64,000 nt of DNA from an uncultured Sinobacteraceae bacterium (GTDB lineage: Bacteria; Pseudomonadota; Gammaproteobacteria; Nevskiales; Nevskiaceae). The DNA lies in the NCBI GenBank assembly GCA_903822975.1, contig CAIJRD010000012.1:868001-932000 (forward strand). The letters are read 5' to 3'. A program made the position numbers and the translations under genes. Shown here piece by piece: positions 34,830 through 42,461 of this stretch. Within the stretch, counting starts at the first letter, position 1; each line of letters begins with the position of its first letter. The notes below the pieces were generated by a model. It saw only the letters and a list, made by a program, of their open reading frames with translations, was not told the DNA's origin and searched no databases.

Positions 34830-35007
34830 AAGCACGGGCTCCGAGGTAGGACTGACTGCATTAGTGTTATAGGGAAACCACGCCCGCGCTTTAAGCGCCG
34901 GGCGCGCCATTATGGACGAACCGCGTTCGTGGATCGAGAGCCGGACGGGCCGCGCGCCGATCTCGCCCGGATGGCCTACCCGTTACATCGGAGTCGATGT
35001 CGTTGCC

Positions 35008-36495
35008 TCATCGACTGAAGGCAGCGTGCGGATCGGCAGCCGCCAGCGGTCGAGCGGGGTCGAGCGTCCAGACGCCGAGTCGTCCGAGGCTCGCAGCGAG
35101 TTCAAGCCGCGCGATGCGCCACGCCGACTGCGCGGCTATGCGCTGATACTGAGCGCTGGCATAGACATCCTGAGCATTCAGCAGATCGATTATCCCGCCA
35201 ACGCCGGCCTTGTAGCGGCCTTCGGCTTCGCCGTACGACTCAGCGGCGCTGCTGAGTAGACTTTCACTCGCAGCAAGACTTTGCGTCTGTGTCTGCAACG
35301 ACTGATAGCTGCGCCAGACCTCGAGTGACGACTGCAACTCGTCTTGATCGAGCTCAGCCTGACGCATGTCCGCCTGCGCCTGCACCTGGCGACTCCGATA
35401 AAGCTGACTGAATCCTTCGAATAGCGGTACCGACAGCTGCACGCCAATGCGTCGCTGATCGACGGTGATATCCGCCGCGTACTGGCCGCTCGGGTTGTCG
35501 CGTTCCAGCGCACCGACCAAAGCCAGCGTCGGCCACTGGCTCCGATCGACTTGTGCTGTTTCGGCGCGCGCCGCTTGCAACTGCGCCTGAGCGGCAATCA
35601 GGCTGGGGTGACTTTGCTTAGTTTGCTCGATCAATTCGTCGACCGAGGCTAGAAAATCTGCATGCGGTTTTGGTGGGTCCTCATCAATCAACTGAAACGG
35701 TGTATTGGCTGCAAGCCCCATCGCAATCGCAAGCTCTCCGGCTGCGACCTGATCACCGCCTTCAGTGCGCACGCGAACAAGCGTCGCCTGCGCCAAGGCT
35801 GTGCCCGCTTGCAACGCATCCGCCTTTGCGCCAACGCCGGCCGCATGTCGCGCGTCGGCGGCCTCGTAGTTCCGTCGTGCAACAGTCTCCGATGTAATCG
35901 CTGCGGCCAACGCCGCTTGCTCGGCAGTCATCCGGTACGCCGCGCGTGCTGCCTGCAGCAACACCTGCTGAAGCAAGGCGTCTTCGCTGGCGTTGGCGGC
36001 AGCCAGGAGTTGGCGCGCCTGTTCGATCGCGGCTTCGCGTTGGCCAAAGTCGAAAATCAGCCAGCCGAGAGTGAGGTTGCCGCTCAACTGTGCGGCACTC
36101 GTGTGGCTCCCGGTATTGGCGGCATCGCCCCTGATATCGGTTGAGGATTCGGCCAGTCCGAGGTTGACGGTCAAATTCGGCAAATAATTGGCGCGTGCGA
36201 CGCCAAGCGCTGCTGCGTGGGCCTTAACGCTGGCCCAGGCTTCGCGCGATTGCGGGTTGTGACACAGCGCGCGATCGACCACTTCACGCAGATTCATCGG
36301 TTGCCGCGGCGCTTCGAAATTGCACAGCAAAGCCGCGTCGTTCGCCGCAAGCCGATCCTTGGTTGGTCCTCGCGCGACGCTTTCCTGAGTCGACCAGGGA
36401 TCGAAATCGAACGCCATTACGGATGTGCAGCAACACAACGCCGACGCAATCACTGCCGTTAGACGTTCAGCTCTCAAGCACCGCTTGTATGTCAT
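35008..36495 (-). CDS. TolC family outer-membrane efflux protein (type I secretion)
   Basis: 495 residues with a signal peptide (cleavage after SVMA). Two OEP repeats of long coiled-coil helices: MNLREVVDRALCHNPQSREAWASVKAHAAALGVARANYLPNLTVNLG begins the first, and ADFLASVDELIEQTKQSHPSLIAAQAQLQAARAETAQ begins the second, ending with GRYKAGVGGIIDLLNAQDVYASAQYQ. Forms the outer-membrane duct of a tripartite exporter. The start ATG overlaps the stop of the ABC transporter gene (ATGA), tying it firmly to this export operon rather than to a general efflux pump. Confidence 0.93.
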   Translation of the reverse strand: MTYKRCLRAERLTAVIASALCCCTSVMAFDFDPWSTQESVARGPTKDRLAANDAALLCNFEAPRQPMNLREVVDRALCHNPQSREAWASVKAHAAALGVARANYLPNLTVNLGLAESSTDIRGDAANTGSHTSAAQLSGNLTLGWLIFDFGQREAAIEQARQLLAAANASEDALLQQVLLQAARAAYRMTAEQAALAAAITSETVARRNYEAADARHAAGVGAKADALQAGTALAQATLVRVRTEGGDQVAAGELAIAMGLAANTPFQLIDEDPPKPHADFLASVDELIEQTKQSHPSLIAAQAQLQAARAETAQVDRSQWPTLALVGALERDNPSGQYAADITVDQRRIGVQLSVPLFEGFSQLYRSRQVQAQADMRQAELDQDELQSSLEVWRSYQSLQTQTQSLAASESLLSSAAESYGEAEGRYKAGVGGIIDLLNAQDVYASAQYQRIAAQSAWRIARLELAASLGRLGVWTLDPARPLAAADPHAAFSR

Positions 36496-38666
36496 GGCGC
36501 AGCCCGTACCGAGCTTGCGGGAGCAGTTTCGGCGGAACCGAAGGCGCGGTCCCACTGCACACGTCCGCCAGTGAGAACGAGGACCCGATTCGCCGCGGCG
36601 ATCGTCTCAGGGCGATGCGCGACGATGATGCGGGTCATCGACTGGGCGCGCAGCACCGCATTGATCTGTGCTTCGCATTTTAAGTCGAGGTGACTGGTGG
36701 CCTCATCGAGGAACAGGATCTGCGGCCGCTTGTAGAGCGCACGCGCCAGCAGCACGCGCTGCTTCTGGCCACCCGACAACACCGTGCCCATGTCGCCGAC
36801 CAGCGAGGCATAGCCCATCGGCATCAGCTGAATGTCGGCATCGATTGCTGCCATCTGCGCGCACTGTCGCATCCACTCGCGATCGACCGTCGGCGCGAAG
36901 AAACTGATGTTGTCTTCGATCGAACCGGCAAACAGGACGTCGTCCTGCATCACCGTTCCGATCATGTTGCGAAGCCCCGCCAGTCCAAGCCGCCGCAACG
37001 TCACGCCGCCAATGCGAACCTCGCCCGCGGTGGGCTCGAACACGCCCAGCATCAGGTTGATCAACGTGGTCTTGCCACAGCCGGATGCTCCGACAATTGC
37101 GACCGACTCGCCCGCAGCAATACTGAGACTGAGGCCGTCCAGTACATAAGGATCCTGCTCGCTGTAGCGGAAACGCACGTCTTTGAGCTCGACACAGCCC
37201 GGCAAGCTTGCGCTGTCCGGCGCGCCGCCAACGGTCTCGAGCGGCTCGGGCTGGGTCAATACGATGTCCGCGAGTCGCTCGCCCTGCAACTGCAGCATGC
37301 GCAATTCGAAATACTTGTCGATCAGACTGCTGACGCGGCCCTCGAACTGTGACTTGTACGAAAGAAATGCCATGAATACGCCGACGCTGAAATGCCCGGT
37401 CAAGACCAGCCGCGCACCGACCCAGATCACCGCGATGCCTTCGAAGCCGAACAGTAGGCCATTGATCTGGCCGTACAGCATCGACATCTTTTGTGTGCGC
37501 AAGCCGACATTGACCTGCGCAACCACCAGACTCAGCCAGCTCGCGCGACGCTCGTCGAGCCGCCCGAACAACTTGATCGCCTTGATCCCGCGCACCGTCT
37601 CAAGAAAATGCGTCTGCTGTCGGGCGGCCTGGACAATTTGTTGTTCGGTGGCACTGCGCAGCGGCGCATACCAGAGCCAGCGACTGGCGCCGTAAAGCAG
37701 CATCGCCGTCACCGCGATCCAGCCTAGCGTTGTGCTGTACAGAAACATCATCACCAGTGTTGAAAGTGCCATCAGGCCATCGAGGATGGCGGCGAGGAAC
37801 GAGGTCGTCAGCGTGTGTTGGATTGAGTCGACAGCGCCGAAGCGAGAGACGATATCGCCCAGATGTCGTTTCTCGAAGTAGGCCATCGGCAGGCGCACCA
37901 GATGGCTGAATACGTTCGCGGTCCACTGCAGGCTCAGCGTGGTCCCCAGGTACATGATCGCCCAGGTCCGGACCAGGCTGATCGCCTGTTGCAACAGCAG
38001 CAATAGTGCGAAGCCGACCGCCAGCGTGCTGAGTAAATCGCGGTCTGCAGACACGATGACGTCATCGATCACCAGCTGCGTTAGCAATGGACCCAGCAAG
38101 GCGAAGACTTCGAGCACCAGCGCCAACACCAGAATTTGCGCGAGCGAGCGCCGCAGGCCGGTGACACGCCCCATCAGTTCGCGCAAGCGCAGGCGTGGCT
38201 TCGGCTGCTGCGGGCGAAACTCGGGATTCGGCCACAGTTCCAGTGCAACACCGGTGAATGCGCGCGACAGCTCGTTCCACGACAGCCGTCGTGGCCCGGC
38301 TGCAGGATCATGAATCGTCGCGCCCGCGGCATCGACCCGCATCAGCACGACGAAATGGTTGAAATTCCAATGCAGCACGCTGGGCAGGCGCAGTTGCTTG
38401 AGTTCTGCCAGTTCCAGTTTGAGCGGTCGCGTGCCGAGTTGCAGCCGCTCGGCCACGCGGATCAACTCGTCCAAGGTCGCGCCCTTGAGTGATGCGGGAA
38501 ACCGGCGACGCAGCGACGCCAAATCGATGGCGTCGCCGTGGAAGTTGGCGATCATGCACAGACAAGCGAGGCCGCACTCGGTGGCTTCGGTCTGCAGTAC
38601 CGTTTGCTGACGCTCACCGAAGCCGAAGCCAAAACGGAGACGGTCGAGCGACTCGCGAATGTTCAT
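36492..38666 (-). CDS. Peptidase-containing ABC transporter (C39, CvaB/RaxB-like)
   Basis: 724 residues in three parts. N-terminal C39 cysteine peptidase with catalytic Cys31 (QTEATECGLAC), His104 (HWNFNHFVVL) and Asp120 (HDPAAG). Next come six transmembrane helices from about residue 165 to 450. The C-terminal ATPase has Walker A GASGCGKTTL, the signature LSGGQKQRV, Walker B ILFLDEAT and the H-loop IVAHRPETI. It cuts double-glycine leaders while exporting peptides. All three C39 residues are present, so it should be a processing enzyme and not a degenerate HlyB type. Start 38666 (ATG) was preferred to the preceding TTG. Confidence 0.96.
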   Translation of the reverse strand: MNIRESLDRLRFGFGFGERQQTVLQTEATECGLACLCMIANFHGDAIDLASLRRRFPASLKGATLDELIRVAERLQLGTRPLKLELAELKQLRLPSVLHWNFNHFVVLMRVDAAGATIHDPAAGPRRLSWNELSRAFTGVALELWPNPEFRPQQPKPRLRLRELMGRVTGLRRSLAQILVLALVLEVFALLGPLLTQLVIDDVIVSADRDLLSTLAVGFALLLLLQQAISLVRTWAIMYLGTTLSLQWTANVFSHLVRLPMAYFEKRHLGDIVSRFGAVDSIQHTLTTSFLAAILDGLMALSTLVMMFLYSTTLGWIAVTAMLLYGASRWLWYAPLRSATEQQIVQAARQQTHFLETVRGIKAIKLFGRLDERRASWLSLVVAQVNVGLRTQKMSMLYGQINGLLFGFEGIAVIWVGARLVLTGHFSVGVFMAFLSYKSQFEGRVSSLIDKYFELRMLQLQGERLADIVLTQPEPLETVGGAPDSASLPGCVELKDVRFRYSEQDPYVLDGLSLSIAAGESVAIVGASGCGKTTLINLMLGVFEPTAGEVRIGGVTLRRLGLAGLRNMIGTVMQDDVLFAGSIEDNISFFAPTVDREWMRQCAQMAAIDADIQLMPMGYASLVGDMGTVLSGGQKQRVLLARALYKRPQILFLDEATSHLDLKCEAQINAVLRAQSMTRIIVAHRPETIAAANRVLVLTGGRVQWDRAFGSAETAPASSVRAAP

Positions 38667-38676
38667 CAACGGTCGA

Positions 38677-39954
38677 TCAATCGAGCTTGCGGGTCAGACT
38701 GAGCAGCGGGTCCAGCACCCACTCGTACAAGCGTCGCGAGTCCTGCAGCACATCGGCTTGCAGTGTCATGCCCGCCTGCAACGCGAGCGCGTTCGCCCCT
38801 GAACGCACGGTTTGGCGATCGAGGACCACCACCACCCGATACAGCGCCTCGCTGCTGGTGATGCCCGGCGGCAGCGGCAGACCGGCGATCTGCAACTCCG
38901 ACGCAGGCCTTGCGACGCGCGCGACCGTGGCGACGCGGCCGGCGAACTGCCCGAACTTCTGATACGGAAACGCCGCGTAGCGCAGTCGTACGGCGTCTCC
39001 GGGTTTGATGAAGCCGATCGCATGACTTGGCACATAGAGATGCGCCTGCAAGCGCGCGCCGTCGGGCACGATGCTGAGTAGAGGGCGACTCGCATCCATC
39101 GTCTGACCCAATTCGCCCAGCAATGCGGTGGCGATGCCGGCAGTCGGGGCCACCACCACCAATCGTCGCTTCGCCTCGCTTTCGGTGAGCTCCTCGGCGG
39201 TGAGAATAATGTTGCGATCGATTCCGGCCAGCTGGTTTTTCTGCGTCAGGGGTGCAACGGCCAGCTCGCTGCGCTGGGCGGCCAGGTTGCCGGCAAGCAT
39301 CAGTCGATCGCGCTGCAACGCTTGTAGCCTGATTTGCTGATCGAGCACGTCCTCCTGGCGCTGTTGCACCTGCTCGTTCGATATGTAGTCTTTTGCCAAA
39401 AGGCCGCGATAGCGGCGCAGGCTGTCGCTGGCCAGCACGACCCGTTGACGCTGCGCATCGAGTTGCCCATCGAGTGCTGCCAACTGGGCGCCCAGACCGG
39501 CGACGGTCTGTTCGAGCGTGGCACGCTGCTGCGTTTGCAGCACACGTGTGTTCTCCAGCTCCGACTGCATCGAGACCCGGCGTGCCTCGACCTGACCACT
39601 GATTGAGGCCTGGCTGCTGCCCTGGCTGTTGATTCGATCGCTGGAGATCACGTACAGCACATCACCACGGCGCACGCGCTGGCCTTCAACGACGTGCTTC
39701 TCGATCACAACGCCAGATTGTTGCGCATAGACCGCGACAATGCCTGTATCTGGAATCAACTGTCCGGAAATGGTGCTGCGCTTTGTGTAGCTTTCCAAAC
39801 AAACAAAAAGGGTGACTACGAGTCCGGCACACGCTGCGAGCGCGACAAATACACTCAGGGATGGCGGTCGCAACAGCAGAATGCTTCCGAAACGCTCCGC
39901 GCCTTGTGCGTCCAATGCGGCAGCACGAAACAGCGGTTTTTGGGACGAGTCCAT
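38677..39954 (-). CDS. HlyD/CvaA-like periplasmic adaptor of the export system
   Basis: 425 residues. One transmembrane helix near 33-52, then a periplasmic part: the first half of the lipoyl/barrel-sandwich (SGVVIEKHVVEGQRVRRGDVLYVI), a long coiled-coil hairpin (residues ~110-260), the second half (RLVVVAPTAGIATALLGELGQTMDASRPLLSIVPDG) and a C-terminal beta barrel ending LLSLTRKLD. Bridges the ABC transporter and TolC. Ten bases upstream of the transporter gene and 56 bases after the precursor peptide gene. ATG 39954 was chosen over an upstream GTG. Confidence 0.93.
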   Translation of the reverse strand: MDSSQKPLFRAAALDAQGAERFGSILLLRPPSLSVFVALAACAGLVVTLFVCLESYTKRSTISGQLIPDTGIVAVYAQQSGVVIEKHVVEGQRVRRGDVLYVISSDRINSQGSSQASISGQVEARRVSMQSELENTRVLQTQQRATLEQTVAGLGAQLAALDGQLDAQRQRVVLASDSLRRYRGLLAKDYISNEQVQQRQEDVLDQQIRLQALQRDRLMLAGNLAAQRSELAVAPLTQKNQLAGIDRNIILTAEELTESEAKRRLVVVAPTAGIATALLGELGQTMDASRPLLSIVPDGARLQAHLYVPSHAIGFIKPGDAVRLRYAAFPYQKFGQFAGRVATVARVARPASELQIAGLPLPPGITSSEALYRVVVVLDRQTVRSGANALALQAGMTLQADVLQDSRRLYEWVLDPLLSLTRKLD

Positions 39955-40010
39955 CGAGGCTTGCAGTGCAAGGCACACACCCGGCCACTCGCCGGGTGTG
40001 TGCCAATGAC

Positions 40011-40364
40011 TTACAGAGAGATGATGCCGCCCGGCACGAAGACGCCCTGCGAGGTCGCGGTTTTCGCGAAGTTCGCGGCGAGCGCCATGATGACGTCGTG
40101 ACCCTGGTCGAGTCCGTAAAAACCACCGTAAGTGGCGCCGATTGCGGCACCCGCGCCGAGACCGACCAGTTCGCCGATCGGCATCAGCAGCGACCCGGTA
40201 TCAAGTGCGCCGATTTGCACGCCATCCCAGGCACCCACCACGGCGCCGAGCGCGACGCCCTCAACTGCGCCGGCGATATGCGAACGCCGATTCATCTGCT
40301 CGGGTGTCGGTGTACGCGCGGCGCCGGCGACCTGTTGGATTTCAACGCTATTTAGTTCTTGCAT
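40011..40364 (-). CDS. Putative microcin/class II bacteriocin precursor with double-glycine-type leader
   Basis: 117 residues. The first 15, MQELNSVEIQQVAGA, fit the leader consensus cut by C39 transporters (EL at -13/-12, E-I at -8/-7, V at -4, GA at -2/-1). The predicted mature part of 102 residues starts ARTPTPEQ, contains many Gly and small residues with GxxxG-type spacings (GAVEG, GLGAGAAIG) and ends VFVPGGIISL with no cysteine. This pattern resembles pore-forming class II bacteriocins and Blp-like peptides. AGGGGATC lies ten bases upstream. First gene of the export operon and therefore the likely cargo. Antibacterial action is inference. Confidence 0.78.
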   Translation of the reverse strand: MQELNSVEIQQVAGAARTPTPEQMNRRSHIAGAVEGVALGAVVGAWDGVQIGALDTGSLLMPIGELVGLGAGAAIGATYGGFYGLDQGHDVIMALAANFAKTATSQGVFVPGGIISL

Positions 40365-40681
40365 GATTTTGATCCCCTGAACTTCGATTTGAGCGCCGCC
40401 GCGCAGGCCGGCGCATTTGGTCTGCATTTCTGCAGTGCGCAACAGCAAACCTCGCGCGAGCGCGTCGTAGCCGATGGAGGCAACAGCGCGTGCGAGCAGA
40501 TTTCCCGACGATGTTCTCGGTCAATAAAGGACAAAGTCTTTGCGACTGGCGACAATTCGAGCGTCAAGACGCGCTGAATGGGTAGCAGTCCCGACTGTGC
40601 GCGGCTCCTCGGCCTCCGCCAACTGAGGGTTTCTCCTGTAGCTACTTTGAACTGGTTACATGTTCTGGGCTCGTGCGGGCG
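40365..40681. other. Intergenic region upstream of the precursor peptide gene
   Basis: 317 bases between the ECF sigma gene stop and the precursor start. I looked for an immunity gene in all frames and found none that looks coding. It should contain the export operon promoter, but no consensus -35/-10 pair is convincing. Confidence 0.45.
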
Positions 40682-41971
40682 TCATTGCCGCGGATGCGCC
40701 GCAAGGCGTCGATCGCATTCGGCGGCACGATCCAGCAACAGCGCACGCTCGCGCAGGTTCTGCGTGAGTGCTGCGGCCCGCACGAATTCCGCACTGGCTT
40801 CGTGCCAGCGCTCGAGCCGCGCCAGCAGATCGCCACGCACGCTCGGCAACAGGTGGTAGTTCCGCAGCGCGGCTTCCGATTGCAAAGCGTCCACCAGTTC
40901 CAAGGCTTGCGCCGGACCGAACGCCATCGACACTGCAACCGCGCGATTCAATTCGATCACCGGCGAGGGTGACAGCTGCGCGAGTGCGTCGTATAGCGCG
41001 ACGATGCGCGGCCAGTCGGTTTCATCGGCGCTGCGCGCCCGCGCATGGCAGGACGCGATCGCCGCCTGCAAGGCATAGACGCCGAGCGCTCCGCCGAGTT
41101 GCTGCGCGCGCGCGAGTGCGGCGAGCCCGCGCCGAATCAACAACTGATCCCAGCGCGCGCGGTTTTGCTCCAGCAACAGAATGGGCGTGCCATCGGCGGC
41201 ACAGCGCGCCGCCAGCCGCGACGCCTGGATTTCCATCAGCGCGACCAGGCCATGTACTTCGGATTCGAGTGGCGTCAGCTCGGCGAGGATGCGGCCCAGG
41301 CGCAGCGCTTCATCGCAGAGGGCCGGTCGCATCCAGTCGCTACCGGCCGTGGCCGAGTAGCCCTCGTTGAAGATCAAGTAGATCACTGCCAACACCGATG
41401 CCAGCCGCGCCGCACGCTCGCCGGCCGGCGGCACTTCGAACGGTACGCGCGCCTCACTGAGCGTGCGTTTGGCGCGGACGATCCGCTGCGCAATGGTCGG
41501 CTCGGGCACCAGGAAGGCTCGCGCAATTTCGTCGGTCGTGAGTCCGCCGAGCAGGCGCAAGGTCAGCGCGAGTCGCGCCTCGGTCGACAACACCGGATGG
41601 CAGGAGACGAACAACAGGCGCAGCAGATCGTCGCCGACATCGTCATCCAGCGCCGCTTCGCGCGCGAGCGCGGCGTCATCGTGATCGAGTTCCAGCTCGT
41701 AGCCGAACTCGACGTGCTTGCGTTCCTGCATCGTTTCGCGGCGCAGTCGATCGAGCGCGCGATGCTTTGCGGCGGTCATCAGCCAGGCACCCGGATTCTG
41801 CGGCAGCCCGCTCTGCGGCCACTGTTCGAGCGCGGTGACCAGCGCGTCCTGCGCCAGCTCCTCGGCCACGCCGACATCGCGCACCAAGCGTGCGAGGCCG
41901 GCGATGATCCGTGCCGATTCGATGCGCCAGATCGCGTTGATCGCGCGATGGGTTTCGCTCGTCGTCGCCAT
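40682..41971 (-). CDS. ECF sigma factor, ECF42-like, with C-terminal extension
   Basis: 429 residues, more than twice a minimal ECF sigma. Region 2 (ARIIAGLARLVRDVGVAEELAQDALVTALEQWP..GAWLMTAAKHRALDRLRRE) and region 4 (LLGGLTTDEIARAFLVPEPTIAQRIVRAKRTL) are followed by a ~220-residue helical, TPR-like/DUF6596 extension (YLIFNEGYSATAG...). This is the ECF42 architecture. No anti-sigma factor is present; such sigmas are thought to be regulated through the extension. Same strand and downstream of two DGPF/YCII genes, the hallmark ECF42 context. Start at ATG 41971. Confidence 0.9.
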   Translation of the reverse strand: MATTSETHRAINAIWRIESARIIAGLARLVRDVGVAEELAQDALVTALEQWPQSGLPQNPGAWLMTAAKHRALDRLRRETMQERKHVEFGYELELDHDDAALAREAALDDDVGDDLLRLLFVSCHPVLSTEARLALTLRLLGGLTTDEIARAFLVPEPTIAQRIVRAKRTLSEARVPFEVPPAGERAARLASVLAVIYLIFNEGYSATAGSDWMRPALCDEALRLGRILAELTPLESEVHGLVALMEIQASRLAARCAADGTPILLLEQNRARWDQLLIRRGLAALARAQQLGGALGVYALQAAIASCHARARSADETDWPRIVALYDALAQLSPSPVIELNRAVAVSMAFGPAQALELVDALQSEAALRNYHLLPSVRGDLLARLERWHEASAEFVRAAALTQNLRERALLLDRAAECDRRLAAHPRQ

Positions 41972-42050
41972 CAATTTGCTTGGGTGCGAAACCGCAGCGC
42001 GCACGCGTCAACACACGCCGTGCGCGCCGCGCTCAGGCTCGCATTCGGCA

Positions 42051-42461
42051 TCAAGGCGCGATTTCGCAATTGACCATCCAAGGCGTGCCGAACCGGTCGG
42101 TGACGATGCCGAAGCGCGTTGCCCAGAATGTCGGCTGCAGCGGCATCTCGACCTTGCCGCCGGCCGACAAGGCAGCGAACGCCCGCTCGGCTTCTTCGGC
42201 GGTTGCGGTGCCCAGGTTCACGCTGAACCCCTGCGGCCGTACGTAACGATCCGGCGGTGCATCGGAGGCCATTAAGATGGTCTCGCCGATGGTGCAGCGT
42301 GCGTGAACCACCTTGTCCTTCCACTCGGGCGACACTTCGGCGGCCATCGGCGAGTCGCCGAAGCGCATCAGCATGTGGACGTTCGCGCCGAGGGCCTGTT
42401 CGTAGAACTTCAGTGCGGCCTCGCACTCGCCTTTGAAATTCAGATAGCAGTTGATTTGCAT
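42051..42461 (-). CDS. VOC family (PhnB/glyoxalase-like) protein
   Basis: 136 residues. One complete vicinal-oxygen-chelate unit: INCYLNFKGECEAALKFYEQALGA, MRFGDSP, IMASDAPPDRY, then SVNLGTATAEEAERAFAALSAGGKVEMPLQPTFWATRFGIVTDRFGTPWMVN. PhnB-like members bind a metal or small molecule; the enzymatic role is unknown. Lies between the YCII fusion gene and the sigma factor and so is probably part of the ECF42 operon. Confidence 0.9.
   Translation of the reverse strand: MQINCYLNFKGECEAALKFYEQALGANVHMLMRFGDSPMAAEVSPEWKDKVVHARCTIGETILMASDAPPDRYVRPQGFSVNLGTATAEEAERAFAALSAGGKVEMPLQPTFWATRFGIVTDRFGTPWMVNCEIAP

Follow-up and report, generated by a model that had tools for sequence, protein, structure and literature searches.

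What does a bacterium send out when a precursor peptide, an adaptor, a peptidase-bearing transporter and an outer membrane channel are encoded side by side, and does such a unit travel as a whole? The question is raised by a locus in a 64,000-nucleotide stretch, hereafter the window, of an uncultured Sinobacteraceae bacterium (Nevskiaceae; assembly GCA_903822975.1, contig CAIJRD010000012.1, positions 868,001 to 932,000 of the forward strand). Four genes, all on the minus strand, run there from 40364 to 35008 in the order precursor, HlyD, C39-peptidase ABC transporter and TolC. We give a probability of about 0.65 to the reading that this export cassette is self-contained, probably mobile and of the class II microcin type, with an antibacterial cargo. 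The initial annotation had described four same-strand genes, the last two overlapping by ATGA, and a transporter with intact Cys, His and Asp, and all three descriptions hold (36495-36492 for the overlap, with the transporter stop at 36494-36492 and the TolC ATG at 36495-36493). Gene order, domains, triad, leader type, the single recognizable leader peptide and an empty site in one relative are all read from the sequence.

The domains of the exporter are clear. The transporter matches Peptidase_C39 (117.5 bits), ABC_membrane (136.1) and ABC_tran (105.7), the adaptor HlyD_D23 (50.9) and HlyD_3 (51.2), and the channel OEP (163.6). Among solved structures, the lowest E-value belongs to a P-glycoprotein, which covers the ABC part only; the best full-length matches are the bacteriocin transporters 8vp3 and 4ry2 (the latter being PCAT1), and alignment with these assigns the catalytic triad to C31, H104 and D120, which are invariant across eight aligned transporters. 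By position, not by an alignment of CvaB, these residues correspond to Cys32, His105 and Asp121 of CvaB (PMC3335142; PMC9746304). No NCBIfam cut-off is reached among the rows considered (for the transporter, the best 25 of 195), NHLM models included; for the NHLP/NHLM export systems, TIGR03796 scores 508 bits against a cut-off of 853.3 and TIGR03794 55.9 against 156.2. Every tested feature of a PCAT type I secretion system is found: the C39 triad fused to an ABC exporter, with HlyD and TolC adjoining. In the host genome, the cassette transporter has the only C39 domain found to keep the triad; the other C39-like domain, in a second exporter (L022, G000 contig C11:248111-250150), lacks the Cys and the His, a feature of HlyB-type systems. 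On its sequence, then, the locus is a leader-processing type I secretion system of the class II microcin type.

To place this exporter among its kin, 95 related loci were used, namely 80 named loci (the best, at 50-66% identity, of at least 595 stretches and at least 563 relatives in a pattern scan of genome_contigs), 10 from genomes of the host's family and 5 from plasmids, with L076 and L097 being duplicates of L032 and L034. The C39 domain with its triad occurs in all 95, of which the 80 were retrieved by patterns, one of these containing the His motif. A HlyD match is found in 94 (the exception is L090), nearly always directly upstream of the transporter.

The second line of evidence is the leader MQELNSVEIQQVAGA, whose 15 residues are predicted to be cut off after GA. 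A position matrix seeded with 11 leaders of 15 residues, the window's own included, gave 94 matches in the 95 loci versus 1 in reversed DNA at 14 bits, and 87 versus 0 at 16 bits. After retraining on the 87 distinct leaders so obtained, which do not include the window leader and of which one or more are chance matches, it gave 103 matches versus 0 at 11 bits; 97 of the 103 reach 20 bits or more, 92 have a GG ending and 9 a GA ending, and some are probably chance matches or lie inside other genes (L055 antisense, one of L052 within HlyD). At least one match is present in 65 of the 95 loci (54/80 named, 8/10 family, 3/5 plasmid). In the window, the sole match of the retrained matrix is the precursor, at 33.7 bits.

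A hidden Markov model (HMM) of the leader, built from 30 rows (the window leader among them; three rows, that leader included, come from the 58 family genomes), puts the precursor first in the host genome with an E-value of 3.8e-5, followed at 0.36 by a match inside an integrase-like open reading frame (ORF); at the sensitivity of this model, the locus has the single cargo that had been claimed for it. Across the 58 family genomes, the host's included, the model finds 8 matches in 6 genomes at E <= 0.01, and it finds none at that threshold in the 17 other members of the genus. All 8 matches adjoin a related C39 transporter. The model is not exhaustive, because it misses peptides of L028, L032 and L036 that the matrix finds. 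The leader type, the intact triad and these adjoining transporters support the complete leader-processing exporter proposed in the initial annotation.

One objection is that the exporter carries some other substrate and that the small ORF either encodes no cargo or is no gene at all. This would fit the failure to find a confident relative of the core in genome samples of the genus (18), the order (85) and the class (369), the host's own included in each, in plasmids, and in genome_contigs and viral_contigs, where the search reaches close relatives only. However, the ORF begins with an ATG preceded at 8 nt by AGGGGA, a ribosome-site-like stretch; its leader is alone in the window at such a score, the runner-up in the genome being the integrase-like ORF; and it lies upstream of the adaptor, as do the peptides in those 8 family loci where a leader was matched. 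We regard this objection as very improbable. The features of the locus are collected in Table 1.

Table 1. Coordinates in the window of the cassette, its hairpin and the stretch that G011 lacks for the most part.
Feature	Position	Strand	Details and basis
Precursor peptide gene	40011..40364	-	117 aa; 15-residue leader MQELNSVEIQQVAGA and 102-aa cysteine-free glycine-zipper core
Perfect 14-bp inverted repeat, loop of 5, between precursor and adaptor genes	39972..40004	-	Folding; no T-run
HlyD/CvaA-type periplasmic adaptor (membrane fusion protein), 425 aa without the stop codon	38677..39954	-	Pfam
C39-peptidase ABC transporter, C31/H104/D120	36492..38666	-	Pfam, alignment
TolC-family outer membrane channel	35008..36495	-	Pfam OEP; ATGA overlap
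Stretch of 5,765 bp present here, versus 157 bp in G011	34958..40722	.	DNA alignment with G011; borders approximate

If the precursor is the cargo, what kind of peptide is it? The core of 102 residues (10,092 Da, or 10.09 kDa; net charge -3) contains 0 cysteine, 19 glycines and 16 alanines, and it has 11 GxxxG motifs compared with 3.3 in composition-preserving shuffles, none of 5000 of which had as many. Weak core matches (L038-L043) were discarded: they are antisense or interrupted, or belong to glycine-rich proteins that lack this leader. The core was also compared with 99 of the 103 cores of the relatives, four of fewer than 25 residues having been dropped; the nearest were a Pseudomonas panipatensis peptide of 127 aa (L063, z-score 6.7) and then one of Delftia (L074, z-score 5.1). 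In a stricter shuffle, with residue classes and glycines fixed and tried for 5 of the 99, 3 of 1000 and 35 of 1000 shuffles, respectively, reach these scores, and since 99 comparisons were made, neither likeness is convincing. The precursor has nothing above the Pfam cut-off. Class IIb (siderophore) microcins have a serine-rich C-terminus; that of this core, ATSQGVFVPGGIISL, is not rich in serine. Among the four cassette and four flanking genes scanned, none was recognized as a modification gene, and such genes accompany class IIb microcins (PMC10233263).

Another possibility is that the core is a non-toxic glycine-zipper protein exported to the outer membrane or a matrix, as would fit the precursor's weak, sub-cut-off matches to glycine-zipper and OmpA-lipoprotein families. 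Such matches nevertheless resemble effects of repeat composition, like the weak genome matches that were inspected, and in leader, gene order and triad the locus matches those for peptide bacteriocins; the cargos of several relatives are also short and rich in glycine or alanine. This makes the outer membrane or matrix protein quite improbable.

An exported antibacterial peptide is what the closest known systems suggest. In Moraxella catarrhalis, the mcbABCI genes are found on plasmid pLQ510 and on some chromosomes, and mcbA, mcbB and mcbC mutants of pLQ510 lost killing (PMC2761928). This system shares with the cassette a HlyD-type McbA, a McbB that is 54% identical to the cassette transporter, and a small peptide with the same type of leader, but its peptide gene follows the transporter and an immunity gene, mcbI, is present (PMC2761928); moreover, the fetched stretch contains no TolC match, and the similarity between the two cores is not significant. 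Acinetobacter baumannii Mcc17978 uses a leader ending in GA (PMC10333792), as does the plasmid locus L045, and these two, together with the plasmid locus L026, have HlyD plus a C39 transporter (55% identical in L045). They differ from the cassette in that Mcc17978 has a cupin-like gene, which its authors suggest to be an immunity factor (PMC10333792), and in that L026 and L045 have no TolC match. Microcin V (MccV, colicin V) follows the same logic of parts, CvaAB-CvaC-Cvi-TolC (PMC10233263; PMC3335142), but uses the chromosomal TolC and has an immunity gene, cvi (PMC10233263), whereas the cassette has its own TolC. Class II microcins are defined by a small precursor with a GG or GA leader (PMC9746304), and the precursor has a GA leader.

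By analogy with MccV, Mcb and Mcc17978, the leader would be cleaved and the core exported as follows. The precursor, made in the cytoplasm, would be bound through its 15-residue leader by the C39 domain of the transporter, which would cut after Gly-Ala; the ABC transporter would then push the core of 102 residues through a channel that it forms with HlyD and the TolC-type protein of the cassette, so that the core would leave the cell in a single step. Once outside, the core would most likely be a membrane-active antibacterial, with GxxxG-rich helices inserting into the inner membrane of competitors. The hairpin 3' of the precursor gene may allow more peptide than exporter to be made. When 81 nt of this region were folded, the minimum free energy was -39.3 kcal/mol (z-score -4.70, with none of 200 shuffles as stable). 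By eye, L030, L031, L033, L034 and L036 also show hairpins at the corresponding gap; folding of 140-nt stretches, carried out for 8 family loci, gave z-scores from -0.2 to -3.9, not all of them exceptional. This hairpin is a probable attenuation or mRNA-stability element that may hold adaptor expression under that of the peptide; a possible alternative GTG start for HlyD, at 39978 (the ATG is at 39954), would fall inside it.

Is the cassette mobile? It lies between a gene for a sigma-70-type factor with DUF6596 upstream and a cytochrome c gene downstream, and in G011, a relative of the same genus, these two genes (80% and 88% identical) are side by side on one contig. The DNA of G011 aligns to window positions 42476-40723 and 34957-33002, with 157 bp between the two where the window has 5,765 bp; the upper border of this longer stretch falls inside the sigma-factor ORF, in its final 41 bp. 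Among the 17 other genomes of the genus, a transporter at 60% identity is found only in G012, whose contig ends just upstream of HlyD with its cargo out of view, and G004 has matches at 30-32%. From the site alone, a gain here and a loss in G011 are indistinguishable; the patchy presence favours a gain. Thus the cassette looks acquired and is probably mobile, as judged from these alignments. No direct repeat was found at its two borders, no transposase was recognized among the ORFs read there, and the flanks of the window show no DNA similarity to 13 relatives' loci, with translated matches that are fragmentary only. At about 62%, its guanine-plus-cytosine content is unremarkable compared with its surroundings. 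In a quick transporter tree of 60 rows, where the tested groups were picked after the first tree and 36 of the 95 relatives were dropped as long or distant rows, a sister relation between the window and G012 transporters was rejected (p-AU 0.0006, approximately unbiased test). Just upstream of the cassette, at 40682-42461, the DUF6596 sigma factor adjoins a glyoxalase-like gene; the sigma factor is probably unrelated to the cassette because it is matched in 13 of the 17 other genus genomes.

Several results weigh against a mobile microcin cassette. In the same tree, a clade of the window transporter with all family loci is not rejected (p-AU 0.239), and transfer from outside the family is therefore not shown. 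Mobility is read from one relative: the flanking genes are adjacent in G011 and on different contigs in the other 9 of the 10 genus genomes that have both, so this gene junction is not kept throughout the genus. As to the cargo, the precursor has no match among bacteriocin family models, and its single-sequence AlphaFold model is poor (mean pLDDT 53.9), with unreliable hints of helices at 21-53, 63-83 and 85-105; the profile search and the structure prediction proposed as checks thus gave no family and no reliable model. The mature peptide is acidic and, at its 10,092 Da, just above the round limit of 10 kDa for class II microcins (PMC11798529). In the scan described above, 30 of the 95 related transporter loci have no leader match. 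A sigma-70 promoter scan found 0 where shuffles would give 1.4, and the best match to the Fur box consensus is 10/19 compared with a shuffle mean of 10.1. Finally, no immunity gene was recognized in the gaps at 40365-40681 and 34911-35007, whose ORFs are low-quality frames except for the flanking cytochrome gene. Confirmed immunity proteins of class II microcins have 51-216 aa and are often membrane-bound (PMC9746304); an unrecognized gene is not an absent one, because immunity proteins lack a shared sequence and are not easily detected (PMC9746304), and two gaps were covered.

The immunity question also bears on a different use of the same exporter, in which the peptide would be a signal or be directed at its own producer, as in autolysis, rather than a weapon against competitors; this would account for the failure to recognize an immunity gene. 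The four cassette genes include neither a sensor nor a receptor, and 102 residues make a long core for a signal. A precedent comes from Neisseria, whose nap island resembles the cassette in being a small, horizontally acquired island with a C39 peptidase gene and GG peptides; in N. gonorrhoeae, these bacteriocin-like peptides promote autolysis, and no antimicrobial activity of theirs was detected (PMC11798529). A gonococcal transporter, perhaps that of nap, shares 48.5% identity with the cassette transporter. However, nap differs in its FapF-related channel, putative regulator, several cationic peptides and autolysis role, and its immunity-like gene, napI, was aligned by the authors with a bacteriocin immunity protein (PMC11798529); the elusiveness of immunity proteins also counts against the argument from their absence. 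A signalling or self-directed peptide, the chief functional rival, is unlikely. Distinctly unlikely is a bolder version, in which the core would be the founder of an unseen glycine-zipper peptide family without dedicated immunity (acting on its own population in autolysis or signalling, or made by a producer without the target), carried on a chromosome-hopping four-gene cassette. For the microcin-type cassette, an antibacterial cargo is likely by analogy, and no more than likely because no immunity gene was recognized. What stands of the microcin export locus of the initial annotation is a complete leader-processing exporter; the name "microcin" we infer, because no immunity gene was recognized, the size is borderline and the activity is taken from analogy.

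On the dedicated TolC, the initial annotation is not supported in the form given, as this gene does not make the locus special: TolC directly follows the transporter in 35 of the 80 named loci (it does not in 41, and contig ends make 4 unjudgeable) and in 9 of the 10 family loci. This adjacency is clustered on the transporter tree, with 8 changes compared with 31 in shuffles, none of 500 of which was as low. A co-encoded TolC is a habit of part of the transporter group. The host genome has 32 OEP domain matches. Among the best 80, the named relatives are Pseudomonadota throughout save for one Aquimarina (Bacteroidota); in two family loci, the transporter is identical to that of Hydrocarboniphaga effusa and of a Solimonas record, both Nevskiaceae, which makes this the probable family of the host as well. 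The kind of export system is known, and what is new is this example of it and a cargo for which no clear relative was found; the family is an environmental one, and a full-text search found no paper linking a microcin with Nevskia. With the cassette, this family gains a compact and probably mobile locus that encodes an outer membrane channel of its own and a core without confident relatives, and it could serve as a test case, with one peptide, one exporter and a cassette-less relative as a possible indicator.

The PCAT-HlyD-TolC loci of Nevskiaceae, Burkholderia, Pseudomonas, Zoogloea and others (among L028-L036 and L046-L098) have the same order of export genes as the cassette, often with a leader peptide just upstream, but they carry other cargos, those of the family loci being peptides of 57-77 residues with mostly MAIQEL...VSGG-type leaders. 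In a Moraxella metagenome-assembled genome (L090, 6108-6817), which has no HlyD match, the core of one leader peptide resembles that of McbC by eye (THWGDRG, TKKW end), and a second, glycine-rich peptide adjoins it. Janthinobacterium fluminis hw3 (L064, 1371-5270, minus strand) has five leader peptides of the form MHPFSLN...VSGG, whose cores, with repeated AIGEEGG-like motifs, look like substrates of modifying enzymes rather than unmodified microcins. Andreprevotia lacus (L120, 3746-5512) has an expanded cargo family of five nearly alike leader peptides of 73-74 residues in tandem before the exporter, and in the host's own family (L030, genome G043, 10704-9615), four differing leader peptides stand in series before one exporter.

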